A stretch of DNA of 24,487 bases from a virus. Made by a program: the position numbers and the translations under genes. Location of the stretch: positions 1 through 24,487 of IMG/VR virus record IMGVR_UViG_3300049783_001307. One strand, 5' to 3'. The notes below the pieces were generated by a model. That model did not search any database. It was not told the origin of the DNA and was given only the letters and a program-made list of their open reading frames with translations. Shown in pieces: positions 2,340-20,176 of the stretch (the first letter of the stretch is position 1; the number at the start of each line of letters is the position of its first letter).

Positions 2340-2687
2340 ATGGATGACCGTTTAGAAAAGGCGCTGGCCTTTTCAAATTATCGTATCACGATTGAAAACC
2401 GCCGCATTGCACTAAAACGTAGATTTGAAACCATGATAGTAGTGCATCATAATGATGGTGTGTTTACCGCAGACAGTACAACAATTGGATTTGCAGCCAC
2501 ATTGTTGCTGGGGGGACATACTGAAGCTATTTTAATTGATACTCGTGGCAATACAATACAGGTAAATGATTTGCTTGTATTCAAAGATAAATTGATGAAC
2601 GCGTACTTTATGGCTACAAATGAATACTCTGTTGATTTGGCAAAGCTTGCAACTGCCCGTAACGTCAAGAAGGTAATGGATTGGTAA
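2340..2687 (+). CDS. Conserved phage protein of unknown function (115 aa)
   Basis: A 115-residue soluble protein, first in the transcript from the promoter at 2287. The N-terminus has DDRLEKALAFSNYR followed by RRFETMIV, and the C-terminus has YFMATNEYSVD and ARNVKKVMDW. From memory, small proteins with this order (charged N-terminal helix, beta core, ATNEY-type motif, ARNVKK tail) are common in T4-like phages, where they have no known function. No signal peptide, membrane segment or catalytic motif is visible. The stop codon TAA overlaps the ATG of the next gene by one base, suggesting translational coupling with the glycosyltransferase-like gene. The start is well supported by AAGGA. Confidence 0.8.
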   Translation: MDDRLEKALAFSNYRITIENRRIALKRRFETMIVVHHNDGVFTADSTTIGFAATLLLGGHTEAILIDTRGNTIQVNDLLVFKDKLMNAYFMATNEYSVDLAKLATARNVKKVMDW

Positions 2688-5368: not shown

Positions 5369-6341
5369 TGATTTTGACATTGTTTTTATCAGCTATGATG
5401 AACCAAATGCAAATAATAACTGGCAGGATCTATTGGATAAATGTCCCTGGGCAAAGCGCAGCCATGGCGTGTATGGAAGTGATGCCGCACATAAAGCCGC
5501 TGCCAAGCTTAGCGAGACCTCCAGACTAATTACTATTGATGCAGATAATATTGTTGATGCAGAATTCTTTAATTTAGAAATTGATATGGACACCATTGGG
5601 CGTGATGATGTAATTAGTTGGGCAGCTAAGAATGAAATAAACGGACTTATATATGGAAACGGTGGCATCAAATGCTGGCCCAAGCATGTAATTGAACGTA
5701 TGCGCACACATGAAGCAGCACCTGAAAATGACCACAGTGCTCAGGTTGACTTCTGCTGGAACATCAACTACGTACAAATGAACAACGTGTATAGCCATGT
5801 ATATAATAACGCCAGCCCGTTACAAGCTTGGCGCGCAGGATTCAGAGAAGGCGTAAAGATGACGCTTGAAGCTGGTAATGTTGTGGACAAAACACACATC
5901 AAAAAAATTCACCGTAAAAACTATCAAAGATTGCTAACTTGGATGAGTGTGGGTGCTGATACAAAAAATGGAGTATGGGCGCTGTACGGCGCTCGTCTGG
6001 GCTGTGTGATGGCGAATCTGCGCCGTGATGAATGGGATTGGAAAAATGTTCGTGACTTTGAATGGTTGAACAATTATTGGTATAAAGAAGTTGCACCAAT
6101 GTTTGCAGCACATAGAGAATTAATCATGGGCATACAAACATGTGAATACACAGGATATATCTGGGACCGTATGCTGGTGTCAGATAGTAGCATTGCACTG
6201 GGAGACCTACTCAGGCAGGAACTTGACTTAGAGATTGCTGACCTGAGTATACAAGACTGTAAGTTCTTCAAGGAAGTATACATCAATCCTGCAAGGACCG
6301 CTCCAATGGTGCGAGAAGAACAAGTAGTTAATTTTATATAA
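5349..6341 (+). CDS. Glycosyltransferase-like protein (phage GT-A family, DAD motif)
   Basis: A 330-residue protein. It opens with DIVFISYDEPNANNNW, then CPWAKRSHGVYG and AHKAAAKLSETSRL, then ITIDADNIV with a DxD at D64 and D66. These are the hallmarks of a phage GT-A-like family that I recognise from other large aquatic phages, and the same family appears again at 13627. The C-terminal part (YIWDRMLVSD) is less conserved. The ATG at 5349 has AAAGGAAG (5337-5344) at good spacing, so the 20-base overlap with the upstream gene is probably real. It ends just before the first radical SAM gene. Donor and acceptor are unknown. Confidence 0.65.
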   Translation: MTLTPINDFDIVFISYDEPNANNNWQDLLDKCPWAKRSHGVYGSDAAHKAAAKLSETSRLITIDADNIVDAEFFNLEIDMDTIGRDDVISWAAKNEINGLIYGNGGIKCWPKHVIERMRTHEAAPENDHSAQVDFCWNINYVQMNNVYSHVYNNASPLQAWRAGFREGVKMTLEAGNVVDKTHIKKIHRKNYQRLLTWMSVGADTKNGVWALYGARLGCVMANLRRDEWDWKNVRDFEWLNNYWYKEVAPMFAAHRELIMGIQTCEYTGYIWDRMLVSDSSIALGDLLRQELDLEIADLSIQDCKFFKEVYINPARTAPMVREEQVVNFI

Positions 6342-6366
6342 GATACCCAATTGAAACGGAAAAGAT

Positions 6367-7923
6367 ATGGCCAAAAAATTTACTGATGTCAAATGGGATC
6401 GATATTCCCATGGTATGATACAGAACAATGCAAATAATAATACGAACATGCGCGACCTGTTGGATTCAACAGGGTGTGGTTTTTGCCTGGCCAAGTTTAC
6501 ACAGGTTACATTGCATCTGGGTACAGGAATGACGCATAGTTGTCATCATCCTACACCACATAAAATCCCACTAGATGAATTGGCAAAAAGTCCAAGTGCA
6601 TTGTTCAATACTTCACATCTGAAAAAAGCTAGAAAACAGATGTTAAATAATGACCGTCCAAGTGAATGTGATTATTGTTGGCGCATTGAGGATGATGGCG
6701 GCACCAGTGACCGTGTTTATAAAAGTATTGAACCCTGGGCAAATGAGCAACATGATCAAATAACTAAGTTGTCTGGTGACGAAAACATCTACCCATCCTA
6801 TCTTGAGGTTAGCTTTAGTAATGTGTGCAATTTAAAATGCACGTATTGTGGTCCTGAGTTTAGCAGCAAATGGGTTGAGGAGCTTAAAAAAGATGGGCCA
6901 ATCAAGTTGCTTGAAGGTACAGCACACGAAACAGAACAACATAACCACGCTGATCTTGATGCATTGAATTACAAAAAACGAGACCACAATCCATACATTG
7001 AAGCATTTTGGAAATGGGTTCCTGATGTAATGCCAAACCTCAAACACTTTCGTATTACAGGTGGCGAACCATTAATGAGCAAAGACACATTTAAAATTAT
7101 GGAATGGTTAATTGCGAATCCAAAACCTGATATGGAGTTTTCAATTAACAGCAACTTTAGTGTGCCAGACAAACTATGGGCGCAATTTATAGAATTGATA
7201 ACACGTATGCGTGATACAGATTGTGTTAAAAAAATTACATTGTATACTAGTATTGAAGGTTGGGGACCGCGTGCAGAGTATGCTCGCACAGGACTGGACT
7301 TTGAACTATTAAAAGCCAGGTCTGAAGAAATTGCTGCAATGGATAACATCAGACTGACAATCATGTCAGCGTTTAATATCCTGAGTATTACTAGCTTCAA
7401 ACAGATGTTGGAATGGGTCCATGCACTCAAGCTACTACATAGTCCAAATAATTCCATTGCACAATTATCTGAAAAAACTGGGTTCAAAATCGGAAACAAG
7501 GATTTTGCGACGCACAAGCTCAAAAACAAGTCACATATGACCACAGTAAGTTTGGATATCCCTTACTTGAGACACCCTGAGCAAATGGATGCACATTTTG
7601 CAACACATCAATTGGTGGAAGATCATTTGTTGCCAGCAATTGAATACATGGGAGCGCACTCAGTTACTGAAGGTTGGCCGCTACCTGGTGGATTTGAAAC
7701 ACATGAACTGGACAAACTTGCTAGGATTGTAAACCATAGGCTGTACTTTAACAAGAAGAATGCACCAGAACGGGAAGGCCATGCAGATATCCGTGTGGCC
7801 AGAGCCAAATTTTACGACTATATAAATACGCTTGACAAAAGACGTAATACTGATTTCCTCGCAGTGTTTCCTGAAATGACAGAATTTTATGCAGCATGTA
7901 AGCAAGCAAAAGAAGAACTATAA
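6367..7923 (+). CDS. Radical SAM protein with N-terminal SPASM/twitch-like module
   Basis: A 518-residue enzyme that should cleave S-adenosylmethionine at a [4Fe-4S] cluster to make a 5'-deoxyadenosyl radical. The cluster motif is CNLKCTYC (C154, C158, C161), followed by ITGGEPLMS (GGE at 232-234) for SAM binding. Before the core lie C37, C40, C59 (in THSCHHPTPH), C101 and C104 (CDYCWR), resembling a SPASM or twitch auxiliary-cluster module placed N-terminal. GGAAAAG precedes the ATG by a few bases. It is the longest of five radical SAM proteins here and overlaps the methyltransferase gene by one base. The substrate is unknown; SPASM relatives often act on peptides, proteins or small metabolites. 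Confidence 0.85.
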   Translation: MAKKFTDVKWDRYSHGMIQNNANNNTNMRDLLDSTGCGFCLAKFTQVTLHLGTGMTHSCHHPTPHKIPLDELAKSPSALFNTSHLKKARKQMLNNDRPSECDYCWRIEDDGGTSDRVYKSIEPWANEQHDQITKLSGDENIYPSYLEVSFSNVCNLKCTYCGPEFSSKWVEELKKDGPIKLLEGTAHETEQHNHADLDALNYKKRDHNPYIEAFWKWVPDVMPNLKHFRITGGEPLMSKDTFKIMEWLIANPKPDMEFSINSNFSVPDKLWAQFIELITRMRDTDCVKKITLYTSIEGWGPRAEYARTGLDFELLKARSEEIAAMDNIRLTIMSAFNILSITSFKQMLEWVHALKLLHSPNNSIAQLSEKTGFKIGNKDFATHKLKNKSHMTTVSLDIPYLRHPEQMDAHFATHQLVEDHLLPAIEYMGAHSVTEGWPLPGGFETHELDKLARIVNHRLYFNKKNAPEREGHADIRVARAKFYDYINTLDKRRNTDFLAVFPEMTEFYAACKQAKEEL

Positions 7924-9203
7924 TGGCCCATCCTGAGGACAGATTTGAACCGCTTGACACTATTGATGCAAATTCAATGTTTAAACTTCAGGCACAGATA
8001 ATACAGCAACATGGTATCAATAGTGTATTGGATGTTGGTTGTCGTTTGGCCCGTCCGTTGGAATGGCTTGACACCAACATAACATATCACGGATTTGATA
8101 TTGTGCCTGATGTGCCTGACAGGCTTGCAACCAAATACCCAGGCGCAAAATATCCCAACACAGATTGGAAAGAAGGTGATTGGGATAATCCTCCCTTCCA
8201 GGGATCTTATGATTGTTTGATTTTTGGCGGCATGTTCTATTACAATAAAGATCGTGTTGTGGAAATAATTGATGCCTATATTGCTCGTTATAATCCAAAA
8301 CTAATCTTAATATGTGATATTCATTATGACAACCCTGCACATTTTTGGCCTGCTGATTTTGCCGCCCTTAAATCTACATTCTACCACAAAGAACATATGG
8401 TGCAATTGCCTGACAGTTTTTATGGAATGAATAAGCGGGTAATATTTGAAATTAACCTAAATGATAATGCACAATCAAAACAAACTGCAAAACCGCAGCG
8501 TACTCTCCTACCAGTTAATCCCACATATACTGGCCTGCAATCGCCAAGTTATCCTGTAGAAGAAATGTTGGAATGGATCTACGTCACCAATACAGAGCCC
8601 CTGGACAATATTGGCAAAACAATGCACAAGGACTTTGTTTTGGATTATTGGATTGGTGTGGCGGCAGGATTTAAACCATATTATACCTTGTGCAAGTTTG
8701 GATTTACAACTGATACCAGAGTGATATATGCTGATATTAGCCCGCGCGAAATTCATTGGCGTAAACATTTTGATCAACATTACTATACAGATATAACTGA
8801 TGCAGCGTTGACAGACATGTATGTTCAATATCAAAAAGACAATCCAAGTTGTGATTTTATTCGCAGTGATATTAACTTAATAGGTAGCACTATTAGGAAA
8901 GAACGTGAGTTCCTAAATATAACTGATAGTGAATGGGAAACAATGTGGCATACATATCAGCAAGCTGAAAAAATCTATAAGGTAAGTAACATTATTGATG
9001 AAGTTGATACAGTGTTAGATCTTGTGCGCAAGCATACAAACAACGCCCCCACAACTGCTTATGTTTGGACCAGCAATGCATGGGATTGGCATCAATTTAG
9101 ATACAGCGAGCAAGACTATAATGATTGGCGCGCGCAAGTTGAAAAGCACATTGGTAGCCTTTATTATGATGGTAAGGTTCCGCCATTCAGTAGTATGGTA
9201 TAA
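7923..9203 (+). CDS. Two-domain SAM-dependent methyltransferase-like protein
   Basis: A 426-residue protein starting at a TAATG overlap with the radical SAM gene. Domain 1 (about 1-185) is a class I methyltransferase: motif I VLDVGCRLA (35-43), an acidic ribose-binding position in GFDIVPD (D59), then YDCLIFGGMFYY and LILICDIHYDN. Domain 2 (about 200-426) contains KFGFTTDTRVIYADIS (258-273) and near the end AYVWTSNAWDWHQFRY. From memory this second module occurs alone or fused in large aquatic phages and also looks Rossmann-like, but its motif I is weak. The product may therefore be an active methyltransferase fused to a binding or second catalytic domain. The target is not identifiable. Confidence 0.7.
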   Translation: MAHPEDRFEPLDTIDANSMFKLQAQIIQQHGINSVLDVGCRLARPLEWLDTNITYHGFDIVPDVPDRLATKYPGAKYPNTDWKEGDWDNPPFQGSYDCLIFGGMFYYNKDRVVEIIDAYIARYNPKLILICDIHYDNPAHFWPADFAALKSTFYHKEHMVQLPDSFYGMNKRVIFEINLNDNAQSKQTAKPQRTLLPVNPTYTGLQSPSYPVEEMLEWIYVTNTEPLDNIGKTMHKDFVLDYWIGVAAGFKPYYTLCKFGFTTDTRVIYADISPREIHWRKHFDQHYYTDITDAALTDMYVQYQKDNPSCDFIRSDINLIGSTIRKEREFLNITDSEWETMWHTYQQAEKIYKVSNIIDEVDTVLDLVRKHTNNAPTTAYVWTSNAWDWHQFRYSEQDYNDWRAQVEKHIGSLYYDGKVPPFSSMV

Positions 9204-9205
9204 TT

Positions 9206-9850
9206 ATGATTGATGTCATAAATGAATTATTTAATACTACATTTGATAGCAATAGCCAATACAGACAATTCCCCAATGGGGAGGTTGCACAGTTTGATAA
9301 CTTGAATGGTATGGAAAGTCAACATCATACCTATTGGGATGATACCTATAAAGTCAAGGCATATACTGAATTATATGGGCAGCATCTTTTTCAAACAATG
9401 ATGACTTTCAAAAATGCTGGGAACATTTATTTAAATGATATCTGGATAGATACCAAAACTAAAAACGGACATATGTACTTTCAATTTAAAATGATACCAG
9501 GCAGTGATCTGTTATTTTCACTTATTAATAATTTCTCAATTGATTTTGCAGTAGATAGTATTGTTGCAGCATATCAGGCAATCGAATCAAATGCAGCCTG
9601 CCAAATTGGTAATAAATATATTATAGCACACGATTACAAATTGTTTAATGCAATTAACTATAATGGCAATATTGTTTGTTTTGACTACGATAGATTTTCA
9701 ACAGTTGAAAATCTATCGTCATTATATAGCGAATTTTGGCATAAGGTTGAAGTGGACGACTTGGGCGCAATAGCATTGTGCATAGATGCATCTACTCAAC
9801 AACAGATTTTAAAGAGCAGCCATGAACGAATATCAAAATTATCTAAATAA
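9206..9850 (+). CDS. Putative small kinase-like (protein kinase-like fold) protein
   Basis: A 214-residue protein. A segment reads AHDYKLFNAINYNGNIVCFDYDRF: D143-Y-K145-x-x-N148 fits the catalytic loop DxKxxN, and D160 in CFDYD sits where the DFG-like metal-binding Asp would be. Upstream, YFQFKMIPGSDLL resembles the hinge of kinase-fold proteins, and YKVKAY (K49 or K51) could hold the ATP-anchoring Lys. It is short for a kinase and lacks a clear glycine-rich loop, so it may be a minimal or inactive kinase fold. It starts three bases after the methyltransferase stop and overlaps the oxygenase gene by 29 bases. A perfect 33-nt inverted repeat lies within its coding sequence, over the DYDRFSTVENLS codons. 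The function is inference from motifs. Confidence 0.5.
   Translation: MIDVINELFNTTFDSNSQYRQFPNGEVAQFDNLNGMESQHHTYWDDTYKVKAYTELYGQHLFQTMMTFKNAGNIYLNDIWIDTKTKNGHMYFQFKMIPGSDLLFSLINNFSIDFAVDSIVAAYQAIESNAACQIGNKYIIAHDYKLFNAINYNGNIVCFDYDRFSTVENLSSLYSEFWHKVEVDDLGAIALCIDASTQQQILKSSHERISKLSK
9687..9719. repeat. Perfect 33-nt inverted repeat (16-bp arms, 1-nt centre)
   Basis: The left arm ACGATAGATTTTCAAC (9687-9702) is the exact reverse complement of GTTGAAAATCTATCGT (9704-9719), with a single A at 9703. It lies wholly inside the kinase-like gene and is in frame with no stop. It can form a strong RNA hairpin or DNA cruciform. No T-run follows on either strand, so it is not a simple terminator. Confidence 0.95.
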
Positions 9851-10403
9851 TTTTATTGTTGACAGATTTAACAATTCTGTATTGATTACTGCCCCATTTG
9901 AGTATATGGTAATAAAGGATATTCTTCCCATAGAGGAATATAACCGAAGCCTGGACCATGCTACCTATGATCGTACTGATCTAGCAGCCGCTATGGCACC
10001 GTTGCAATCATATTTTTACCAATTATTTACACATGTAAAGGATCCTGAAGTCAAGAGCTTTAATTTGCAATTAACTGAATGGGACCAAGGATACAGTTAC
10101 AGGCCACATCTGGACGGCGGTCCCAGAGTGTTTTCTATGGTAATATATCAACCTGAACATGACAGACATCCTTGGTTAGGCACCAGTGTTTACCGTAAGG
10201 TCGACAACGATTTCAGAGTCGTCGACTACGCACCTTACTTGCCCAACACAGGAATTATATTTCCGTGTGGATTTGAAAATTGGCATGGTAACGAAATACA
10301 ATTAGAAGCGCACCGTCGCAAAGCCATGCTATGTTTCTTTTATAATAAAAAGCTAAAAGAAGCGCATGGTTGGGATATGGAAGGTTATACTGAATATGAA
10401 TAA
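9822..10403 (+). CDS. 2-oxoglutarate/Fe(II)-dependent oxygenase
   Basis: A 193-residue protein with the double-stranded beta-helix oxygenase signature: HxD in YRPHLDGG (H96, D98), a distal His in NWHGNEIQ (H155) and an Arg just after (R165 or R166) to hold the 2-oxoglutarate carboxylate, followed by AMLCFFY as the last strand. The size suits the prolyl 4-hydroxylase-like group. It should hydroxylate, or otherwise oxidise, a substrate using O2 and 2-oxoglutarate. It overlaps the kinase-like gene by 29 bases and the fibrinogen-domain gene by eight, so the three are probably translated from one message. The substrate is unknown; the adjacent adhesin-like protein is one candidate by position only. 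Confidence 0.7.
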   Translation: MNEYQNYLNNFIVDRFNNSVLITAPFEYMVIKDILPIEEYNRSLDHATYDRTDLAAAMAPLQSYFYQLFTHVKDPEVKSFNLQLTEWDQGYSYRPHLDGGPRVFSMVIYQPEHDRHPWLGTSVYRKVDNDFRVVDYAPYLPNTGIIFPCGFENWHGNEIQLEAHRRKAMLCFFYNKKLKEAHGWDMEGYTEYE

Positions 10404-10992
10404 TGCATGGCAAATCAAACAACTTTATCCAAATGCAGTTACTGGTTGGTATGAGATACAGGGATATTATATTTGGTGTGACATGACATCTGATGGCGGC
10501 GGCTGGATGCTAGTGGCCAATATCGGACTGGACTCAGCACATGTTACACGAGATGCGTTAAATGGTGATGTAGTACCAGGTGCAAGTGAATCATCTAAAT
10601 TCCATGATGATTTTATTAACCAACTACGAAGCAATAGTACATATTCAGGCAACACACCCTGGCGCGCCACCGCAACTAATTTTGATGTGTTTCCAGACGC
10701 ACCTGATGTCACAGTCCCTGACAGGTTGCGCACACAAACACAATTTATCAATGCAGCAATGACTGAATTTAATGCTGAAGCACAGGCGATGCATGTTCAC
10801 GGTGCAACATGGATGCACATTAATTACGAACATCCATATTGCATGAAACTTAAATATGACGAACGAACTATTGGATTTGGGGACAGATTTAAATCAGGCG
10901 ACACTTATTTTTCCTGGGCAGATGCAGATATTATGCGAGGATTTTCATCACATAATCGTAATTGCAGTCCAGGATCATTATGGGTAAAGTAA
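10396..10992 (+). CDS. Fibrinogen-like domain protein, putative adhesin/lectin
   Basis: A 198-residue protein consisting almost only of a fibrinogen-related module. Near the N-terminus it has YPNAVTGWYEIQG and then YIWCDMTSDGGGWMLVAN, the classic CDMxxDGGGW signature, and it ends with SSHNRNCSPGSLWVK, as in fibrinogen or intelectin-type lectin domains. C-terminal Cys residues could pair. There is no signal peptide, so it is more likely a virion part or a cytoplasmic binding protein than a secreted one. I chose the ATG at 10396, which overlaps the upstream stop (ATGAATAA) and has GGAAGG upstream, over an earlier GTG-type start. Such domains bind sugars or acetylated groups; here it may help host attachment or present a substrate to the neighbouring enzymes. 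Confidence 0.7.
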   Translation: MNNAWQIKQLYPNAVTGWYEIQGYYIWCDMTSDGGGWMLVANIGLDSAHVTRDALNGDVVPGASESSKFHDDFINQLRSNSTYSGNTPWRATATNFDVFPDAPDVTVPDRLRTQTQFINAAMTEFNAEAQAMHVHGATWMHINYEHPYCMKLKYDERTIGFGDRFKSGDTYFSWADADIMRGFSSHNRNCSPGSLWVK

Positions 10993-10999
10993 TACAAAT

Positions 11000-11033
11000 T
11001 GCGTGGATCACAAATATAAGTTTTTACCACGCA
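11000..11033. repeat. Short inverted repeat in the gap before the second radical SAM gene
   Basis: TGCGTGG (11000-11006) and CCACGCA (11027-11033) are exact reverse complements with a 20-nt spacer, in the 57-nt gap after the fibrinogen-domain gene. No T-run follows, so a terminator is not supported. It could be an RNA structure or operator upstream of the AGGAA ribosome binding site at 11038. Confidence 0.5.
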
Positions 11034-11049
11034 CTGCAGGAACATTGAA

Positions 11050-12258
11050 ATGACCAAGAACACACCTAATATACGGCCATTTGCGCCGCAGAATAATAGC
11101 CAAACATCAACTCCAGACTTTGGAGACGTTTGGATAAAAGACAGTAACGGCAGTGTTGCTGAGCAAAAAGATTTAACAGGGCGATATTGCAGTAAACCAT
11201 TTACCTGGGTTGAGATAGATATGTATGGTCGTGTATGGATGTGCTGCCCGTCCTGGCTTCCTTATTCCATTGGTAATATTCTTGAAGACGATATGAAAAC
11301 AATATGGAATAGTGAAAAAGCGCAGCAATTACGACAACAAGTTTTTAATGGCAAATGGAACTATTGTAATCATATACAGTGTCCACATATACAAGATGGT
11401 AGCCTGCCCACACTGGAATCTATTGAGTCTGGAAAATACCCATCTGCAATACCAGAATTTAAAGCGGTGTCCAATAGGTCAACTATAGTGGAAGAACTGC
11501 CCACAAAGATTAATTTTAGTAATGATGAAAGTTGCAATTTGAAATGCCCCAGTTGTCGTATCGGAAAAATATTGTTTACATCTGGCAAAGAGTATGATAA
11601 GCGCAAGCATATAAACGATCGACTTATTGCTGATTTTCTAACCACGCCTACTGACCGTAAATTTAGTATTCATGTTACAGGCAGCGGTGATCCATTTGCT
11701 AGTAAGATTTATAGAGACATGTTGACATCGCTAAAAGGCAGTGATTTCCCTAATCTAGTCGTTAACATGCAATGTAATGGTATTATGTTTACTCCTAAAA
11801 TGTGGGATAAAATTAAAAATATACATGATAATTTAGGCTACATCCGAATCAGTTATGATGCTGCACAAAAGCACACATACGAAAATGTTACCCGCCTTGG
11901 TGGAAAATGGGATCTATTATTAGAGAATTGTGATTTTTTGAATGCACGCCAAATTGAATATCCAAACATGAAACTATCTTACGACTTTGTAGTGCAAAAT
12001 GATAACTTCAGAGAGATGCCTGCCTTTGTGGATTTAATCAGGTCCCGTTATAATAATGCAACCAGCCTGAGTTTTAATCTTGTTACAGATTGGGGCACTT
12101 GGGATGCCGCAGCATATGAAGAAAAATGTATATGGAAGACCACCCATCCCAATCATGACGAATTTACACAAATACTAAAGGACCCAATTTTTGCCTACCA
12201 TAAGGTTAGCTTGGGGAATGTATTACCATACAGAGAGAAGGCACTTAATGGCAAATGA
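11050..12258 (+). CDS. Radical SAM protein with N-terminal SPASM-like module
   Basis: A 402-residue enzyme. The N-terminal module has C47 (in YCSKPFTWVEID), a CC pair at C65-C66 (VWMCCPSW), GNILEDDMKTIWN, and C106 and C111, the SPASM pattern. The radical SAM core follows with SCNLKCPSC (C162, C166, C169) and VTGSGDPF (about 209-216), where the SAM-binding GGE is replaced by GSGDP, as in some SPASM-family members. Arg and Lys-rich segments and SYDAAQKHTYE fit the later core strands. AGGAA lies seven bases before the ATG. It overlaps the next radical SAM gene by 11 bases. The two are probably paralogues acting on related substrates, but the reaction is unknown. Confidence 0.82.
   Translation: MTKNTPNIRPFAPQNNSQTSTPDFGDVWIKDSNGSVAEQKDLTGRYCSKPFTWVEIDMYGRVWMCCPSWLPYSIGNILEDDMKTIWNSEKAQQLRQQVFNGKWNYCNHIQCPHIQDGSLPTLESIESGKYPSAIPEFKAVSNRSTIVEELPTKINFSNDESCNLKCPSCRIGKILFTSGKEYDKRKHINDRLIADFLTTPTDRKFSIHVTGSGDPFASKIYRDMLTSLKGSDFPNLVVNMQCNGIMFTPKMWDKIKNIHDNLGYIRISYDAAQKHTYENVTRLGGKWDLLLENCDFLNARQIEYPNMKLSYDFVVQNDNFREMPAFVDLIRSRYNNATSLSFNLVTDWGTWDAAAYEEKCIWKTTHPNHDEFTQILKDPIFAYHKVSLGNVLPYREKALNGK
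12236..12241 (+). promoter_or_regulatory. Ribosome binding site deciding the start of the third radical SAM gene
   Basis: AGAAGG lies six bases before the ATG at 12248. This favours 12248 over the in-frame ATG at 12191, which would add 19 residues and lies deep in the upstream gene. Confidence 0.75.
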
Positions 12259-13567
12259 CTCCAAAACAGACTTAAAAAGTCTAATTGAAAATAATGCCAC
12301 TTCTGCGGATATTATTGAAAACACAAAAGCTTATTGTGTAATGCCCTGGGCACATTTGCACGTTGCAACTTCTGGGGATGTGTTGCCATGTTGTATTGCA
12401 GATTATAAGCATAGCATGGGCAATATTAATGAACTATCCTATGATGAAATTTGGAATGGCGAAGGAATGCGTGAGTTCCGACAAAGCATGATGGCTGACA
12501 AAAAACATAAAAGTTGCAAGTCCTGTTATGAAAAGGAAGCTACAGGTAATTGGAGTCAACGAATCGATGGAATTAATAAGTTTCAAAAAACTGTTGCGCC
12601 CTGGGTTCTGAATACCGCACCAGACGGTACTAGCACTGACAGCAAACCCATTTACTGGGATATCCGTTTTAGTAATATATGCAACATGCGGTGTCGAATG
12701 TGTGGTCATTTTTCTAGTAGCCGCTGGTTTGCAGATGCAAAAAAACTAAAAAAAGACTATAATGATAACCAGTATCTAACAGGAAATAGTGATAAGGCAA
12801 TTATGCATAGTGTAAAGGATTCAAATGGCTTATTGGATAGGTTAGAAGAATATTTGCCTAATGTAGAGGAATTGTATTTTGCAGGTGGTGAGCCGTTAAT
12901 TATGGACGAGCATTATCGTATTATTGAATATTTACACACCAACAAATTATTCAAAACAAAAATACGTTACAGTACAAACTTGGCCAAGTTAATATACAAA
13001 CGCAAGGATATAGTTGAGCTATGGAAAGATTTTGAATGGGTAGAATGTGTTGCTAGTATTGATGCATCAGGTGCAAGAGCAGAAATATTGCGAAAAGATA
13101 CAGTGTGGCAAGACATAATTGATAACAGTCATCGTATTAAAAATGAGGCACCTAATGTCTGGTTTAGAATTGCGCCAACTGTACAAATTTTGTCTATCTT
13201 TCAATTACCAGAATTGCACTTGGATTTTTTGCAGCGAGGATTGCTTGGGGCAAATGACTGTTTTTATAATATTTTAAGTACACCACAACATCATAATATA
13301 CAAGCGTTACCAGTTCATATGAAACAGCAAATACGTGAAAAATGGATGGATTATAAAAAACATCTGAATGATAATTATGACCCTGCTAAACTAAACACTG
13401 TATTTGGCACAATCGATCACACGTTGACATTTATGGATGCACATCAATTACCAGACAGCCACCTGACAGAATTTGTTAATAAAACCAGAGCACTTGATAC
13501 TATACGTGGCGAAGACACGCCGGGCACATTTCCTGAGCTTGACTTTATTTGGAAGAATTATGGCTAG
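12248..13567 (+). CDS. Radical SAM protein with N-terminal SPASM/twitch-like module
   Basis: A 439-residue enzyme. Before the core: C30 (YCVMPWAHLH), C48-C49 (VLPCCIAD), MGNINELSYDEIWN, then C90 and C93 (SCKSCYEKE), a textbook SPASM layout but N-terminal. The core has CNMRCRMC (C145, C149, C152) and LYFAGGEPLIMD (GGE at 213-215) for SAM binding, then VECVASIDASG. The C-terminus ends in TFPELDFIWKNYG, resembling the FPEMTEFYAA end of the 6367 protein and FPELDEYY of the 18237 protein, so the three are close paralogues. It is the last gene before the second promoter. Substrate unknown; related enzymes modify peptides, proteins or small molecules. Confidence 0.85.
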   Translation: MANDSKTDLKSLIENNATSADIIENTKAYCVMPWAHLHVATSGDVLPCCIADYKHSMGNINELSYDEIWNGEGMREFRQSMMADKKHKSCKSCYEKEATGNWSQRIDGINKFQKTVAPWVLNTAPDGTSTDSKPIYWDIRFSNICNMRCRMCGHFSSSRWFADAKKLKKDYNDNQYLTGNSDKAIMHSVKDSNGLLDRLEEYLPNVEELYFAGGEPLIMDEHYRIIEYLHTNKLFKTKIRYSTNLAKLIYKRKDIVELWKDFEWVECVASIDASGARAEILRKDTVWQDIIDNSHRIKNEAPNVWFRIAPTVQILSIFQLPELHLDFLQRGLLGANDCFYNILSTPQHHNIQALPVHMKQQIREKWMDYKKHLNDNYDPAKLNTVFGTIDHTLTFMDAHQLPDSHLTEFVNKTRALDTIRGEDTPGTFPELDFIWKNYG

Positions 13568-13580
13568 TAGATTCTTACAT

Positions 13581-13609
13581 TTGACATCACGCCCAGGATA
13601 TTGTATACT
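13581..13609 (+). promoter_or_regulatory. Sigma70-like promoter before the second GT-A paralogue
   Basis: TTGACA (13581-13586), a 17-bp spacer and TATACT (13604-13609) form a near-consensus host-type promoter in the 59-nt gap. AAGGA (13616-13620) follows six bases before the ATG at 13627. It should start the 13627-19490 transcript. Confidence 0.82.
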
Positions 13610-13626
13610 ATAAAAAAGGACCAATT

Positions 13627-14337
13627 ATGCTTGATGTATTTTTTCTAAGCTACGATGAACCGTTTGCTGACGACAACTTTAAATTGCTACAACTGTTTGC
13701 ACCAAACGCAAAGCGAGTACATGGTATCAAAGGTATTTTTGAAGCTCATCAAGAATGTGCTCGACAAAGCAAGACATCACATTTTTATGTGGTAGACGCT
13801 GACGCAATAATTGAAGAAGAATTTAGTTTTAAATTTACACCACAGTCTGATCGGTTTGTATACGAAACAATTCCAGAAACTGAATGTGTATTTGTATGGC
13901 GGTCCAGGAACCCTGTCAATGACTTAATATATGGGTATGGAGCAGCAAAACTATTTCCAAAACAAAAACTTCTTGACGCCACCCAGTGGAATGTAGATAT
14001 GACCACGAGTATTGGTGCTACGTTTGTGCCTAAATTTCAGATCAGCAACACTACTGCATTTAATACTTGCCCCTTTAATACATGGAAGAGTGCATTTAGA
14101 GAGTGTACAAAATTGTCATCTGCTATCATTCCCAATGGAGACAATACAGACAACATGTATCGCTTACAAAAATGGTGTCAGACTGTGACAAAGCGCCGGC
14201 CGTTTGCTGACTTTTGTAGGCTGGGGGCATTACAGGGCAGAGACTTTGGACAACGCTATGCTGCTCGGACAGACATCCTTAATAAGATTAATGACTTTGA
14301 TTGGTTAAAAGAAATGTTTGATAAACATGCTAACTAG
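13627..14337 (+). CDS. Glycosyltransferase-like protein, short paralogue of the 5349 gene
   Basis: A 236-residue protein of the same family as the one at 5349: DVFFLSYDEPFADDNF, APNAKRVHGIKGIFEAH, VVDADAIIEE with DxD at D57 and D59, then VWRSRNPVNDLIYGYGAAKLFP. The last motif is the usual one for this phage family; the 5349 paralogue has a divergent form (INGLIYGNGGIKCWP). It lacks about 90 C-terminal residues found in the 5349 protein. It leads the transcript from the 13581 promoter with a well-placed AAGGA. The likely role is transfer of a sugar, possibly to the virion or the host envelope. Its stop overlaps the next gene by 11 bases. Confidence 0.7.
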   Translation: MLDVFFLSYDEPFADDNFKLLQLFAPNAKRVHGIKGIFEAHQECARQSKTSHFYVVDADAIIEEEFSFKFTPQSDRFVYETIPETECVFVWRSRNPVNDLIYGYGAAKLFPKQKLLDATQWNVDMTTSIGATFVPKFQISNTTAFNTCPFNTWKSAFRECTKLSSAIIPNGDNTDNMYRLQKWCQTVTKRRPFADFCRLGALQGRDFGQRYAARTDILNKINDFDWLKEMFDKHAN

Positions 14338-15283
14338 AGAACAGCTTCTTGACAGGATGGAAATACTCTATCCCCACGACACACGATTTGCGGATTTGCG
14401 ACGTGCGTATATTGATCGTGACCCAAACAGCATACATCGTTCCATTATTAATTTTCATGGCGACGAGCTTGACAATTTACGGATCGCGTTGCGTGACGAC
14501 AATTGGCATAAACTATTCCATCTGATAGATGGATCCTGGAAGCCTGAATTCAATCCACGAGACGAAATGGGATCAGGGGACTTGCGTAAATTCCTGTTAG
14601 AAGATAATACTTGGAGCATGTATAGATTGTTACTTGACTTACAAGATAATCAAATTGTGCGTACAATTAAAAGCTGCCATGCAAGTGGCACACGTTTCGA
14701 TAATGATAGTCTGAGTCAAGGCCAACTCAGAAGCAAGATGTGGTTGATTAATGCAATAAAAACACTTGACATCAACCTGGGAACTGTGTTCTTATGCGCC
14801 GGTTGGTATGGTATTTTAGCAACACTGATGTTTGAGCATGGCATTGCACTTGACAAGGTTCGCAGCTTTGACATGGATCCAGCTGTTGTAGCTGTTGCTG
14901 ATAAGTTTAACGCCCCCTGGCAGGACAACTGGCAATTTAAGGCTATTACAGACGACATACACAATATTAATTTCAATAGTCATAGATGGACTGCTTGGAG
15001 CAATGCAAACGGTCGTTGTAGCAAGCCCATTACAGATACCCCAGACACGATCATTAACACAAGCTGCGAACATATTATTGACTTTGATAAATGGTATGAC
15101 AAAATCCCCACAGGCAAAATAGTAATATTGCAGAGCAATGATTATGCAGACATTGTTGAACATGTAAATACATCGCATGACCTTGATGCATTTAGATTAC
15201 AAACACCTTTGGCCAAAGTGCTATATGATGGTGAAATGAAATTAGAAAAATATACACGGTTTATGCGAATAGGAATTAGATAA
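14327..15283 (+). CDS. SAM-dependent methyltransferase of a phage family
   Basis: A 318-residue protein. The motifs are SQGQLRSKMWLI (130-141), a glycine-rich loop VFLCAGWYGILA (154-165), SFDMDP (180-185) at the ribose-binding acidic position, then DTIINTSCEHI (240-250) and LQSNDYAD near the catalytic face, ending EKYTRFMRIGI. From memory this set is a well-conserved family in large aquatic phages, annotated as methyltransferase with no proven substrate. The first 120 residues form an extra helical domain. I chose the ATG at 14327 over a TTG nine bases earlier. It follows the GT-A gene with an 11-base overlap and precedes a small membrane protein gene. Confidence 0.72.
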   Translation: MLTREQLLDRMEILYPHDTRFADLRRAYIDRDPNSIHRSIINFHGDELDNLRIALRDDNWHKLFHLIDGSWKPEFNPRDEMGSGDLRKFLLEDNTWSMYRLLLDLQDNQIVRTIKSCHASGTRFDNDSLSQGQLRSKMWLINAIKTLDINLGTVFLCAGWYGILATLMFEHGIALDKVRSFDMDPAVVAVADKFNAPWQDNWQFKAITDDIHNINFNSHRWTAWSNANGRCSKPITDTPDTIINTSCEHIIDFDKWYDKIPTGKIVILQSNDYADIVEHVNTSHDLDAFRLQTPLAKVLYDGEMKLEKYTRFMRIGIR

Positions 15284-15286
15284 CAA

Positions 15287-15493
15287 ATGTTAAATAGTGG
15301 ACAGAGTTGGCAGGAATTTGTGGTAGACACGCTAAGGGTATTTTTAGTGTCTGTGGCCATGCTAGCACTAACCATCTATGTAAGCAGCAGGTTCGATGGG
15401 CCGACGTTGCAGATATCATGTGTGGGGCCTGCTGAGCCAGTTGCAGAGCCAGGCGAAACGTTGTCATGTTTAAACACGTCAGGCACCAAGTAG
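15287..15493 (+). CDS. Small single-pass membrane protein (68 aa)
   Basis: A 68-residue protein with one hydrophobic helix at about residues 11-33 (VFLVSVAMLALTIYV). It is followed by a 35-residue tail with two Cys (C45, C61), two Pro-Glu pairs (PAEPVAEPGE) and SCLNTSGTK at the end. It starts three bases after the previous stop and ends 14 bases before the fourth radical SAM gene. AGGA is 12 bases upstream, a little far, so the start is moderately sure. There is no lipobox. Topology is unclear from charge. It may be an envelope-inserted phage protein; because it lies next to a SPASM-type radical SAM gene, its Cys-bearing tail could also be a modification target, but that is speculation. Confidence 0.6.
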   Translation: MLNSGQSWQEFVVDTLRVFLVSVAMLALTIYVSSRFDGPTLQISCVGPAEPVAEPGETLSCLNTSGTK

Positions 15494-15507
15494 ATAGGAT
15501 ATAAGCA

Positions 15508-16599
15508 ATGAACATTTTTAATCGAATTACATCGATACATATTGAACCAACATCTGAGTGCAATTCCAGATGTCCACAATGCGTTAGGACATTTGGTGCA
15601 TCACTGTTGGCCCATCCCAAATTAAACATAACAGAAATCTCACCTGAGCAAATATATAAGGCCATGTCTGATCCAATGTTATCAGAGGTTAACAATGTGC
15701 TATTGAATGGTAACTTTGGTGATATTGTAATGCATACCAAGCCAAAGGAATTTATAGAGGCAATCATGTTGTTTGATTTGCATACTATTAAGATCAATAC
15801 AACAGGCAGCGCGTTATCCACTAGTTTTTGGTCCTGGTTGGGAACAAACTCAAATGTAAAAGTTGAGTTTGGTATTGACGGGTTGGAAGACACGCATCAT
15901 TTATATCGACGCAATACCAGATTCGATACAATAATGAAAAATGCAAAAGCATATATTGCTGCGGGCGGCCACGCCACTTGGTCTATGGTTGTATTTAAAC
16001 ATAACGAACATCAAATTGACAAATGCGAAAAACTGGCAAATGAGATGGGCTTTGTTGTATTTAAGAGCGCGCCATCTACCAGGTGGCCCAAAAAGAATAC
16101 CAAATGTGTGGACAAAGATTTTAAAGTTAAATACGTGATAGAGCCTTCCACGAATATAGCACATGAGTTTAAACTCATGCCTGATGATCCACGAGATGCA
16201 GACTCTTATAAAAGTTACGATGGTGGAATTGCTGCTCCTATCCCAATCATAACAGAAAAGAAAACCATTAGCTGTAGAGCAAAAAAGCATGATCAAATCT
16301 TTATTTCGGCAGATTTTAAGCTTTGGCCATGTTGTTGGTTAGCAATATATCATACTCGACATGAGTGGAACGATGTTGTTAGTGACCTGCATATTATGCT
16401 ACATGACGAATTAGGATTGCCATCTAATTTTAATAGTTTAGATGATTTTAAGATTGAACAAATTTTTGATACACACGCGTTTACAGCAATTGAGAATTCA
16501 TGGACATCATCAAACCCAATGGTGGAATGCCATAAAACATGTGGACAGAACAACATGATTGATTTACGAGTTACACAAACAAAGGAAATAAAAACATGA
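15508..16599 (+). CDS. Radical SAM/SPASM protein with canonical domain order
   Basis: A 363-residue enzyme with the cluster motif near the N-terminus: IEPTSECNSRCPQC (C18, C22, C25). LLNGNFGDI (65-73) stands where the SAM-binding GGE region is expected. The auxiliary SPASM domain is C-terminal: C256 (ISCRAKK), C275-C276 (KLWPCCWLAIY), C341 and C345. This is the usual order, unlike the four other radical SAM proteins in the window. An 18-bp palindrome lies in its coding sequence at 16162. It follows the small membrane protein gene and overlaps the next gene by four bases. SPASM members commonly modify ribosomally made peptides or proteins; no obvious short precursor peptide is proven here. Confidence 0.83.
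   Translation: MNIFNRITSIHIEPTSECNSRCPQCVRTFGASLLAHPKLNITEISPEQIYKAMSDPMLSEVNNVLLNGNFGDIVMHTKPKEFIEAIMLFDLHTIKINTTGSALSTSFWSWLGTNSNVKVEFGIDGLEDTHHLYRRNTRFDTIMKNAKAYIAAGGHATWSMVVFKHNEHQIDKCEKLANEMGFVVFKSAPSTRWPKKNTKCVDKDFKVKYVIEPSTNIAHEFKLMPDDPRDADSYKSYDGGIAAPIPIITEKKTISCRAKKHDQIFISADFKLWPCCWLAIYHTRHEWNDVVSDLHIMLHDELGLPSNFNSLDDFKIEQIFDTHAFTAIENSWTSSNPMVECHKTCGQNNMIDLRVTQTKEIKT
16162..16179. repeat. 18-bp perfect palindrome in the fourth radical SAM gene
   Basis: CATGAGTTT followed directly by AAACTCATG, with no centre gap. It encodes part of the linker between core and SPASM domain. A palindrome of this length could occur by chance in a window of this size. Confidence 0.8.
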
Positions 16600-17489
16600 T
16601 TTTCTCTCTTATATTTTTAAATAGCAATAATGATGAATTTGAAATTGAGTTTGAGTCATATGACAATTCAATTAGTGACCGTTGGTCCATGGCACTATAT
16701 GACCAATGTCAGCGCGATAATCGTATAATAGAGCCAGACCGACTGTACAATTTTCCTGATGGGCAATGGACTGAAGAAATGATCGTTAATGAACTGAATA
16801 GTTGCATTGACGTGCTCAATCGATATAGCCAGGTAATCTCACACCGTGCATTTGTGGGAATGCCACAAGAGCAATTAAATAACTTGCATCATTATTTTGA
16901 AAATTTACGTGGCGGAGTTTTATCACCAGGCAGTTATTATAAAAGTGCAAATGCGTTACAACGTGATTGCCTTGACAGGTACAATGTTATTATTCACCGG
17001 GCAGAAAACTTTTACAGTGGGCACACCAAGCAAGGGGTATATCCACGAATTGTTTCTAGATTCCATAACCGCCAACGTTATCCATTAATGGATAAAGATT
17101 ACCAGCATTTTACATTTGAACGGTATTTTGGTGAACTCTACATCAATTACTGTGAAGTGGGTAAACCCATCTATGACGTATACAAAGATAATGATGACAT
17201 AGTTGGTGAAGATAATATTCGACCATTACGTTTTTACAGTCCAGACTTTACATGCTATTTTCATAATCGGTCCTTGTCCAGTATTCAAAACTTTGAAAAT
17301 GGGATGAATGAATGGTGGGACAGAAATGACAATTACCTAACTGCATTAGGATTTACAAAAGGTGATCCCCGCAACGCAATGGGATATATTCCAGTGGGTA
17401 AGCTCATCACTAAATATAGCGAACAACAATTGGTGCAATTGATTTGTGAATACAATACAATGGACCGAGTGGAAATTAAACATTTATAA
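16596..17489 (+). CDS. Conserved phage protein of unknown function (297 aa)
   Basis: A 297-residue soluble protein. Visible features are LYDQCQRDNRIIEPDRLYNFPDG near the N-terminus, then LNSCIDVLNRYSQVI, then LNNLHHYFENLRG (about 94-106), then RIVSRFHNRQRYPL and YFGELYINYCEVGKP. I recognise the overall pattern from uncharacterised proteins of large aquatic phages, often close to radical SAM or glycosyltransferase genes, but know no function. There is no signal peptide, membrane helix or catalytic motif I can name. It overlaps the radical SAM gene by four bases (ATGA) and is followed by the QueC-like gene. It may be a scaffold, substrate or partner of these enzymes. Confidence 0.75.
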   Translation: MIFSLIFLNSNNDEFEIEFESYDNSISDRWSMALYDQCQRDNRIIEPDRLYNFPDGQWTEEMIVNELNSCIDVLNRYSQVISHRAFVGMPQEQLNNLHHYFENLRGGVLSPGSYYKSANALQRDCLDRYNVIIHRAENFYSGHTKQGVYPRIVSRFHNRQRYPLMDKDYQHFTFERYFGELYINYCEVGKPIYDVYKDNDDIVGEDNIRPLRFYSPDFTCYFHNRSLSSIQNFENGMNEWWDRNDNYLTALGFTKGDPRNAMGYIPVGKLITKYSEQQLVQLICEYNTMDRVEIKHL

Positions 17490-17494
17490 AAGGA
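17487..17494 (+). promoter_or_regulatory. Ribosome binding site pointing to a GTG start at 17503
   Basis: TAAAAGGA lies eight bases before GTG 17503, while the ATG at 17446 would force a 44-base overlap and the ATG at 17515 has no binding site. A four-codon out-of-frame ATG-CGT-GTT-TGA reads through the same place (17499-17510) and is probably incidental. Confidence 0.65.
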
Positions 17495-17502
17495 ATATAT
17501 GC

Positions 17503-18237
17503 GTGTTTGAAACAATGAAATTCCAGGATGATTGGAACAATATAGGCATAATGTTGTCTGGCGGCGCTGATAGCAGTATAATTTATTATGCAGCTTGTGA
17601 TTATTATAAAGACAGAGACGATGTCAACATTTATGCACTCTCATTAAATTCTGAATGGAAGCCATGGTATGGTGATTTTGCGGCTGATGTGATCCGTATA
17701 ACTGAAGAATTAACAGGAAAAGCTTGTGCAGGCCATATTGTTGATTACACTGCCCTGCATAACTCACACGATTCTGGTCAAGAATATATTATTGGTCAAG
17801 AACGTATGACCACCAGGGCCATAGCAGAGTATAATCTTAATGCGCTATACAATGGTATAACACTAAACCCTAACATTGATGAAATGACGTCGCGTTTGAC
17901 GCAAGTGCATGGAGCAGGCTCACGCAATCTTAAAGAGTTCTTGGTTCACGTACCAGGTCGCGATCTATCACGTGACAATGCGCCAAATTGGAAGAACTTT
18001 AGCATCGACGACACAGGGTGTCACCGTATCCGACCGTTCATTCAGCGGGACAAAATGGTTACGTTTGAAGCCTATGACTATTATGGTGTAATAGACACGC
18101 TCTATCCGTTCACGTATAGCTGCGAGACACGCCCTGGTGATAATTTTTACGACCCACGTGCGTCAGATGATCATGTACACTGCGAGCAGTGTTGGTTTTG
18201 CTCAGAACGATTTTATGCATTTGGTAGAATTATCTAA
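17503..18237 (+). CDS. QueC-like PP-loop ATP pyrophosphatase
   Basis: A 244-residue protein with the N-type ATP pyrophosphatase P-loop MLSGGADSSII (SGGADS at 19-24) that adenylates or activates a carboxyl or carbonyl group. The C-terminus has YSCET (C207) and then HCEQCWFCSER (C227, C230, C233), a zinc site like that of QueC (C-x(n)-C-x2-C-x2-C), and AFGR after it. VPGRDLSR (about 150-157) resembles the QueC VPGRN stretch, and RPFIQRDKMV fits the later PL..DK motif. It is longer than typical QueC between the P-loop and zinc site. The stop overlaps the next radical SAM gene by one base. It may make a 7-deazaguanine-like nitrile or an amide or other adduct; no QueD, QueE, FolE or DpdA is seen here. 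Confidence 0.72.
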   Translation: MFETMKFQDDWNNIGIMLSGGADSSIIYYAACDYYKDRDDVNIYALSLNSEWKPWYGDFAADVIRITEELTGKACAGHIVDYTALHNSHDSGQEYIIGQERMTTRAIAEYNLNALYNGITLNPNIDEMTSRLTQVHGAGSRNLKEFLVHVPGRDLSRDNAPNWKNFSIDDTGCHRIRPFIQRDKMVTFEAYDYYGVIDTLYPFTYSCETRPGDNFYDPRASDDHVHCEQCWFCSERFYAFGRII

Positions 18238-19490
18238 TGGAAAATAAACCATGGTGCGTTGATCCATTTATACAAATGGCACATACAGCAGACGGATTTT
18301 ATCGTGTTTGCTGTATCGGTGAGGTTGATCGCAGCGCCGCGATGAATACACAAAACATGACGCCATTGGAGTTCTTTAATTCTGGTCATATGCAGCAAGT
18401 TAGAGCAGACATGCTTAAAAATGATCCTGACCAATTTACACAAGCGACCAAGCATTCATGCGGGCAATGTATTAGTAATACCCACAGCAAAATTACACAC
18501 CGTAGAATACAAGAAAATGACATGTATAGTGATTATACGCATGTTGCAGATAATGTTCGCAAACATAATAATGGAGAAAGCTATATATACGAAGACTTGC
18601 TCTATGTCAACTTTAAAGTGCTTGGAAACATCTGTAACCTAAAATGCATTATGTGCGGGCCCAGCGCCAGCAGTAAAATTGCAGCAGAAAGAAAAAAGTT
18701 CTTTACTGGTGATGCAGACAATTATGTTGAACTGAATCCATTTGATACCAATAACAGAGAACAATACTTTGATGAGATTGACAAGATTATTAGTAGCGTG
18801 AACAAATTTAATCTGGTAGGTGGTGAAAATATGATTCACCCTGACTTTGTTAGTTTATTTGAACGATTCATTAATAATCCCAATGCCAAGAATTTAAATC
18901 TAACTATTATTACAAACGGTACAATGGTTCCTCCAATTGTTCTTGACAATGCTCATCGGTTTAATAGTGTGTCCATGTTGTGCAGTATTGATGGTGTGGC
19001 CGAACGTGGAGCATATGTTCGTAGCGGACTAAAGTGGAATACATTTGACAAAAATATTCGCATCTATCAAAATCACCCGCACATTTCTACCAGCTTTTTG
19101 GTCGCTACCCAGATGCTTAATATAGGTTATCTGGGTGACATTTATGATTATTTGGTGTATGATTTAGGAATACCGTATAAACGTATCAACTGGAATAACG
19201 TTGTCACAAGTCCAGCAAAATGGCGAGCAGTTAATCTGCCAGATCACATTAAGGCCAAATATCTTGAAAAACTAAAAAAGCACGAGATATCACAATTGAA
19301 TTGGTTACCTTATGATAGGATTGAGCAAATTTTATTAAGCCCACAAGGTTCAAATGATGAATTTCTAAAAGGGATTCAAGAATTAAAAACTCTGGATGCA
19401 GTGCGCAATTCATACATGCCATTACATTTTCCTGAATTAGATGAGTATTACCAATTGGCGCCGGAACCAAAGATCAAACTATTAAGATAA
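18237..19490 (+). CDS. Radical SAM protein with N-terminal SPASM/twitch-like module
   Basis: A 417-residue enzyme. The cysteine module is at the extreme N-terminus: C7 (PWCVDPF), C25-C26 (RVCCIGEV), C75 and C78 (SCGQCIS). The core has NICNLKCIMC (C133, C137, C140), LVGGENMIHP (GGE at 195-197) for SAM binding, and LCSIDGVAERG. The C-terminus HFPELDEYY matches paralogues at 6367 and 12248. The ATG overlaps the QueC-like stop (TAATG), so the two enzymes are likely made together. It is the last plus-strand gene of the long cluster and ends two bases before the inverted repeat at 19492. The pairing with a PP-loop ATPase suggests sequential steps on one substrate, which is inference. Confidence 0.83.
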   Translation: MENKPWCVDPFIQMAHTADGFYRVCCIGEVDRSAAMNTQNMTPLEFFNSGHMQQVRADMLKNDPDQFTQATKHSCGQCISNTHSKITHRRIQENDMYSDYTHVADNVRKHNNGESYIYEDLLYVNFKVLGNICNLKCIMCGPSASSKIAAERKKFFTGDADNYVELNPFDTNNREQYFDEIDKIISSVNKFNLVGGENMIHPDFVSLFERFINNPNAKNLNLTIITNGTMVPPIVLDNAHRFNSVSMLCSIDGVAERGAYVRSGLKWNTFDKNIRIYQNHPHISTSFLVATQMLNIGYLGDIYDYLVYDLGIPYKRINWNNVVTSPAKWRAVNLPDHIKAKYLEKLKKHEISQLNWLPYDRIEQILLSPQGSNDEFLKGIQELKTLDAVRNSYMPLHFPELDEYYQLAPEPKIKLLR

Positions 19491-19491
19491 A

Positions 19492-19513
19492 ATGGTGCAG
19501 TATATCACACCAT
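19492..19513 (-). terminator. Candidate terminator hairpin between converging genes
   Basis: ATGGTG and CACCAT form a 6-bp stem, extendable with two wobble pairs to a 6-nt loop. On the minus strand it is followed by TTTATCTT, a weak U-tract, so it could end the 19505 transcript. On the plus strand no T-run follows. It overlaps the stop codon of the minus gene. Confidence 0.4.
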
Positions 19514-20176
19514 CAAGCCCCACTGGCGTTCAAGGCACCACCAGCAATACCCGCAATGGGGCACAAAGTCGATAAGTTCTTGATCAGCCCATTGGCCTGG
19601 ACACGAGCGAGTGCTTTGGATTAAGTCAAACACTTTCAACTCTTTAAACATACGAACTTCGTCTTGTTTGTCAATATTGGCTAATGGTCGATATACAGGT
19701 AAGCCATGTTGCTCTGCCCATTCAGAATGATCTCTGGCGCGTCTGTGCGGTAGTGGACATGCGTCATACAGATCAACTTCTTTCCCTATGTGATCACAAA
19801 CAACAGCACCTTGTGGTGGCGAAGCGTTTTGTCCAATTAACCAGACATCAGCCAAATCCTTTAATTCAACCATAGCTTGATTGCAGTGGTGGGTTTCTCT
19901 GTCATCATGGTAATGGGTAATATGGTAATCAATTGCACCAGGCGTTAACCGCTTAATAGTTTGCGCAAACGCTTTATTCGCCCACTCAAGATGTACACGG
20001 TTGTTTATGTAGCTGCAACCCGCTGTGACTGCAATTATCCGACGATGTGGGTAGCGTAACCCAGCTAAGTATAATAACAAGGTGCTATCCATGCCTCCGC
20101 TGAATAAGACTGCGATAGATTGATACTGTTCAGGAATATGGAAGTTGTGCATAGCATTATTTATTGGATACAACAT
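19505..20176 (-). CDS. QueC-like PP-loop ATP pyrophosphatase (second copy)
   Basis: A 223-residue protein with the P-loop LFSGGMDSTLL (SGGMDS at 26-31), close to the QueC/ExsB pattern. Near the C-terminus QSTRSCPG (C192) and HCGYCWWCLER (C208, C211, C214) form a QueC-like zinc site, and PLANIDKQDEV (about 164-174) matches the PL..DK motif. It differs strongly from the 17503 copy, so the two are not a recent duplication. The ATG at 20176 interlocks with the ATG of the plus-strand oxygenase (shared CATG); another in-frame ATG at 20152 is possible but lacks a ribosome binding site, while 20176 has GGAAGG about 12 bases upstream. The reaction is unproven; 7-deazaguanine chemistry, amidation and sulfur transfer are all possible for this fold. 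Confidence 0.75.
   Translation of the reverse strand: MLYPINNAMHNFHIPEQYQSIAVLFSGGMDSTLLLYLAGLRYPHRRIIAVTAGCSYINNRVHLEWANKAFAQTIKRLTPGAIDYHITHYHDDRETHHCNQAMVELKDLADVWLIGQNASPPQGAVVCDHIGKEVDLYDACPLPHRRARDHSEWAEQHGLPVYRPLANIDKQDEVRMFKELKVFDLIQSTRSCPGQWADQELIDFVPHCGYCWWCLERQWGLMV

Follow-up and report, generated by a model that had tools for sequence, protein, structure and literature searches.

A radical SAM-rich gene block behind the tail-fiber genes of a marine phage as a possible glycan-tailoring island

A dense block of radical SAM genes

The window, which is the whole stretch of DNA analyzed here, comprises positions 1–24,487 (24,487 nt) of IMG/VR virus record IMGVR_UViG_3300049783_001307, from a marine tailed phage. 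Adjoining its tail-fiber genes is a closely packed, same-strand run in which five radical S-adenosylmethionine (rSAM) genes lie inside 13.1 kb. We see about an even chance that this block is an rSAM-rich form of the glycan-building and glycan-tailoring island located behind the tail-fiber genes of marine T4-like phages. A glycan-tailoring island is favored because of the glycosyltransferase (GT) matches, the sugar partner genes in relatives, the swapping of cassettes, and the place of the block behind the tail fibers.

A preliminary description had counted five rSAM proteins in about 13 kb with intact cluster motifs, and both points were confirmed. PF04055 matches lie at 6808–7260, 11533–11973, 12665–13147, 15541–16023 and 18621–19148 in frames without internal stops, and the five CX3CX2C motifs agree exactly with the letters described. 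Two of the five proteins score under Pfam's cut-off, with the motif intact in them. Each also carries the cysteine set of an auxiliary Fe–S cluster (twitch/SPASM), N-terminal in four and C-terminal in the protein encoded at 15508, and they are therefore twitch/SPASM-type enzymes. All are encoded on the plus strand. rSAM 1 (6367–7923; clade 0 of the rSAM tree), rSAM 3 (12248–13567; clade 3) and rSAM 5 (18237–19490) have an N-terminal twitch and exceed the 170-bit cut-off of the NCBIfam model N_Twi_rSAM (NF033640), with 315, 364 and 260 bits, respectively. rSAM 2 (11050–12258; clade 6), with an N-terminal SPASM/twitch region (SPASM, 44 bits), and rSAM 4 (15508–16599), of the C-terminal auxiliary-cluster type, fall below it (76 and 18 bits). 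The start of rSAM 3 is an internal ATG in an open reading frame (ORF) opening at 12191. The five proteins are divergent, with pairwise identities of 13–24%.

Structure searches with rSAM 1 and with the transferase encoded at 5349 gave fold class only. For the predicted model of rSAM 1 (predicted local distance difference test, pLDDT, 92.7), viperin was the top fold match and SkfB, a maturase of ribosomally synthesized and post-translationally modified peptides (RiPPs), the second. The nucleotide-sugar decarboxylase BlsE and AprD4 were among its structural neighbors, and its likeness to viperin and QueE is at the fold level. The best solved relative of the rSAM 3 profile is the aminocyclitol dehydrogenase BtrN, matched in the twitch domain (E = 2e-7), which is C-terminal in BtrN but N-terminal here. 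The sugar rSAMs BtrN, BlsE and AprD4 are sequence or fold neighbors of the window enzymes at identities too low for transfer of substrate.

A conserved module precedes a variable rSAM repertoire

A search with rSAM 1 returned 304 viral matches; 80 loci were kept and 67 non-redundant contigs were analyzed. About 50 of the 80 related IMG/VR contigs share a module of tail genes, a 115-aa gene, two GTs, a further gene (X), a GT-A transferase and the 6367-type rSAM. In family terms, the order in most of the 67 contigs is tail genes, f4, f3, f3, f33 or f7, f1 and this rSAM, often followed by f1, f6 and then a variable gene set. The module of the window begins at 2340, behind a tail-fiber-type gene; the left edge at 6367 given earlier was too narrow.

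The plus-strand stretch 2340–6341 before rSAM 1 is occupied by glycogenin-like (GT8) and GT-A-like transferases. The first module gene (2340–2687) encodes the 115-aa conserved protein, f4, present as a single copy in 42 contigs. It is followed by a GT8-like glycosyltransferase of family f3 with a DTDY motif (2681–3580; family profile match to glycogenin, E = 3e-8), a divergent GT-like protein that clusters in the same family (3577–4425), an f33 protein that has no function call and holds the same slot in relatives (4397–5368), and a GT-A-like transferase of family f1 (5349–6341; model pLDDT 90.5). Nearly all top Protein Data Bank (PDB) matches of the last are GT-A enzymes (TarP, SunS, RmlT and TarS; E ~1e-3, template modeling (TM) score ~0.3). 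A tblastn search with the 5349 and 2681 transferases and one relative gave no match in 50,697 phage records, and these transferases therefore have no cultured model.

Clade 0, to which rSAM 1 belongs, occurs in 65 of the 67 contigs, which were fetched with that rSAM as query. Behind the module, the number of additional rSAMs in relatives ranges from 0 to above 15; N-twitch rSAMs number 18 in the 66-kb contig G004, 15 in G005, 14 in G007 and 13 in G012. B12-binding (class B) rSAMs were also seen in the same islands (L099:519–1955, L104:4064–5851 and L115:2408–3979). The rSAM tree resolves into about 28 groups and 32 singletons and, clade 0 excluded, a group is present as a single copy in 143 of 149 contig–group cells. 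An origin by tandem duplication was rejected, the nearest relative lying on the same contig for only 8 of 195 rSAMs. The rSAMs form old, mostly single-copy ortholog groups. Their order is the same in 248 of the 259 pairs that can be compared, against a maximum of 200 across 2000 shuffles; after thinning to eight diverse contigs it is the same in 54 of 58, a value that no shuffle reached. Order conservation is solid for the anchor and suggestive beyond it.

Two contigs extend the picture for this phage. The 55.9-kb contig G001 matches window positions 2898–24487 at 99.9% identity; it carries a phage DNA polymerase (PHROG 262) and, like G005 (147342–147746), encodes a SAM synthetase (L091:18334–19428 in G001; S-AdoMet_synt_C, E ~1e-59). 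The family of this phage SAM synthetase, PHROG 1569, is listed as of unknown function. In the 32.8-kb relative G002 (locus L010), the block 2340–15283 is kept in order, except that insertions separate the counterparts of 12248 and 13627; after the block come other rSAMs. The counterparts of 7923, 9822, 11050 and 12248 are 80–87% identical (87% for 9822) as opposed to 34–40% for 3577 and 4397, and the enzyme cassette 7923–13567 is therefore a well-kept unit. Purifying selection on the G002 orthologs is strong, with dN ~0.10 for 11050 and 12248 and dS saturated or ~2.5.

The idea of a dedicated pathway thereby gains support, in that the module and several rSAM groups keep their neighborhood and order, the genes are under purifying selection, and the longer contig supplies a SAM synthetase. 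The opposite outcome, genes scattered and independently gained, was looked for in the related contigs, which spoke against it.

Sugar-related partner genes and cassette exchange

The islands of relatives contain genes for a carbamoyltransferase, DegT aminotransferase, NAD epimerase, UDP-sugar dehydrogenase, FkbM methyltransferase and GT7 galactosyltransferase, and the carbamoyltransferase, UDP-sugar dehydrogenase and NAD epimerase were found inside rSAM-rich islands. Where relatives are poor in rSAMs, sugar aminotransferase and esterase-like genes fill this slot: DegT, GDSL and f9 cassettes behind the core are present in 0 of 16 rSAM-rich versus 8–10 of 18 rSAM-poor contigs (p = 0.003 to 0.0004), a distribution that alternative tailoring sets would produce. 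A-type Fe–S carriers occur in five relatives. The major capsid protein gp23 is clear in G015, G022, G027 and G031, with a weak 18-bit match in G001, and in G004 the module comes after the gene of a giant virion structural protein (phrog_10938). One island protein, in alignment A4, matches the RuBisCO large-chain catalytic domain (E = 3e-28).

A proposed glycan pathway and its alternatives

For the substrate, acceptor, timing and reaction order we infer the following scheme. The GT8/glycogenin-like and GT-A-like transferases (2681, 3577, 5349 and 13627) would assemble a short glycan at a late stage of infection, and its acceptor would most likely be a tail-fiber, fibrinogen-domain or other receptor-binding virion protein and less likely a host surface polysaccharide; the preference for the virion over the host surface is suggested by the position of the island. 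The rSAM-twitch enzymes would then abstract hydrogen atoms from sugars or sugar nucleotides, each at a different step, with epimerization, oxidation, dehydration or C–C chemistry as options. The methyltransferases, the 2-oxoglutarate (2OG) oxygenase and the QueC-like enzyme might complete the decoration, the last by ATP activation of a carboxylate to give an amide, and swapping the cassette set could alter the final structure, with O-antigen loci as an analogy.

Several observations weigh against this scheme. The window has no classical nucleotide-sugar enzyme, such evidence coming from relatives. The structural matches are weak (TM 0.25–0.45) and include viperin and SkfB, and the BtrN match of the rSAM 3 profile leaves out the catalytic core. 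In eight thinned contigs without clade 0, order agrees in 24 of 28 pairs, a value reached by 116 of 2000 shuffles, and both the gene-order and the cassette-exclusion statistics ignore phylogeny. Cellular relatives of the N-twitch rSAMs lie in mixed neighborhoods, with a mild GT2 excess (6 of 125 neighbors).

The preliminary description had left the substrate open among a virion glycan or protein, a nucleotide and a host metabolite. A glycan is now favored, and deazaguanine-type DNA modification and an ordinary RiPP are disfavored by missing markers. Amino-acid side chains of a virion protein, such as a tail fiber or the fibrinogen-domain adhesin, could nevertheless be the target of the rSAMs in the manner of proteusins, together with the 2OG oxygenase and methyltransferases and with the GTs acting separately or on the same target. 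The position of the block directly behind tail genes would fit this, as would the frequency of SPASM/twitch domains among peptide maturases, the rank of SkfB in the rSAM 1 search, and the co-conservation with L010 of the 7923–13567 cassette (methyltransferase, 2OG oxygenase, fibrinogen-like protein and two rSAMs). However, PqqD/RiPP recognition element (RRE) domains, which with a precursor peptide mark a RiPP cluster, were found in 0 of 18 contigs searched, mostly fragments, no conserved precursor was found in the window, where the 73-aa f19 protein is missing, and the most recognizable partners are sugar enzymes; we regard side-chain modification as unlikely. Somewhat less probable again is that the same glycan chemistry acts on another acceptor, altering lipopolysaccharide (LPS) or capsule sugars of the host to exclude superinfecting phages. 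This was proposed for the GTs of the same kind of island in pelagimyophages (PMC7029224), and GT8 types are typical LPS transferases, but the island follows late structural genes, whereas the benefit of an altered surface would be greatest early in infection, and the window showed no recognizable flippase, polymerase or undecaprenyl-phosphate GT.

Hypermodification of nucleotides or DNA with QueC-like steps seems improbable. Two QueC-like genes, nearby thyA and dfrA-type genes, and the fold of rSAM 1 are compatible with it, yet in 18 contigs, mostly fragments, the 7-deazaguanine (Dpd/QueC) combination of QueD with tRNA-guanine transglycosylase (TGT)/DpdA was not found, TGT/DpdA occurring in none and QueD in only two. 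ThyA, moreover, retains the Asn of canonical thymidylate synthase. The slimmest prospect is a weapon against host or rivals, for example a chain terminator of the viperin kind or a diffusible antibiotic produced in the course of infection. Partial matches to pVip models (22–34 bits) and the first rank of viperin in the fold search fit this. However, the matches are confined to the core common to rSAMs in general, viperin was not matched over its full length, and no exporter or self-resistance gene was recognized.

Returning to the glycan-tailoring island, a bolder extension is possible but doubtful: that T4-like phages of the ocean combine as many as about 20 non-redundant rSAMs, some genomes supplying SAM or Fe–S themselves, and thereby give the receptor-binding apparatus a decoration that is chemically new and specific to the strain. 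If true, no modification system known from viruses would be denser in rSAMs, and phage–host recognition would gain a new layer. With the virion as target, these phages would carry undescribed chemistry at the surface with which they contact the host. The conserved core, single-copy ortholog groups and sugar-cassette swap turn a vague remark on gene cassettes into a testable pathway, and rSAM islands, common in marine phages, could be a large untapped source of enzymes.

Relation to known phage and cellular systems

That the pathway might be undescribed holds only in part, as rSAM cassettes in marine T4-like phages were described in 2017 and 2020, and cassettes with GTs from their host recognition cluster are in print (PMC7029224). 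The host recognition cluster of pelagimyophages, read as changing host LPS, combines tail fibers, GT8-rich transferases and rSAM cassettes in one variable island, like the window; there the island is located between VrlC and gp14, and the cassettes are named in passing (PMC7029224). The T4-like ocean virus TARA_ERS488813_N000010, noted in 2017, has 12 rSAM genes and an A-type Fe–S carrier (PMC5332604), compared with up to 18 N-twitch matches in 66 kb, Fe–S carriers in five relatives and a SAM synthetase here. In phages from the Tasman Sea, rSAM and glycosyltransferase genes show joint enrichment (PMC7150976). None of the three reports assigned a function to the cassettes; new here are the conserved core, the ortholog groups, the sugar-cassette swap and the cofactor supply, including the SAM synthetase that the longer contig encodes. 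Vibrio phage K566 and KVP40-like phages also have several clustered rSAM genes (21–23% identity), but near a nicotinamide phosphoribosyltransferase gene, and the window GTs have no match there. No nucleotide match of the window was found among cultured phages.

Neighbors of cellular N-twitch rSAMs were considered as a clue to substrate and found too mixed to decide. Host assignment from bacterial matches was likewise rejected, L119, L128, L130, L134, L177, L180 and L188 being phage contigs binned into metagenome-assembled genomes (MAGs). Such island-bearing contigs occur in MAGs of, for example, Ca. Pelagibacter, Rickettsiales and Rhodobacteraceae and lead to rSAMs being falsely annotated as cellular. 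The Elusimicrobia MAG bin-0981 (L136, L142–L144, L148, L150, L152, L155, L156 and L160) carries many N-twitch rSAMs, up to seven in one 20-kb locus, and a cellular expansion therefore exists too.

Other genes of the window

The window opens on the plus strand with the C-terminal piece of a tail-fiber-type protein (3–203, open at the window edge), whose homologs hold the same place before the module in 22 loci, and a tail/fiber structural protein (204–2273; PHROG 584 tail, E = 1e-8). Genes within the block, likewise on the plus strand, overlap at 7 of 13 junctions, in line with the overlapping starts and stops described before. Of the two large methyltransferases proposed, the class I enzyme with an extra C-terminal domain (7923–9203) is supported by Pfam (Methyltransf_25, 27.7 bits; cut-off 27), whereas the f6 protein (14318–15283), conserved in 39 contigs, lacks Pfam support and is methyltransferase-like by family profile only (best PDB match MJ0882, E = 0.0015). 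The kinase-like call for 9206–9850, made by eye, found no database support in family searches, although the gene is conserved in L010. The putative 2OG-Fe(II) oxygenase (9822–10403) is under the Pfam cut-off (PF13640, E = 4e-4), but the HLD motif is present and a His follows downstream. The fibrinogen-like domain (YCDxxxxGGGW) of the next protein, a probable adhesin, was verified (10366–10992; NF040941, 32.9 bits, cut-off 30; PHROG 1959).

A second f1 GT-A-like transferase, of the same family as 5349, lies at 13627–14337. The small membrane ORF at 15287–15493, present only in this phage, was rejected as a precursor peptide, since it fails to align with f19, a 73-aa peptide found in relatives. 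In relatives such as L041, L053, L062 and L064, f19 is a highly conserved protein of 73–87 aa between f6 and the next rSAM and might serve as carrier or substrate. An f36 protein with no function call (16596–17489) is present in six contigs. The QueC-like N-type ATP-pyrophosphatase, f14 (17446–18237; PHROG 1550), is borne out by its SGGxDS loop and C-terminal four-Cys set (SC...CxxCWxCxER), conserved in the family, and a second f14 copy lies on the minus strand (19505–20176; PF06508, 34.7 bits, cut-off 22). Across contigs, all QueC-like genes have SGG(A/M/L)DS and the four-Cys set, and most have an rSAM gene no more than two genes away. No RNA elements or tRNAs were found in the window. In the reversed G001 contig, genes 34–45 form a tandem run of about a dozen small f16 paralogs (69–207 aa), seen in no other phage of the comparison.

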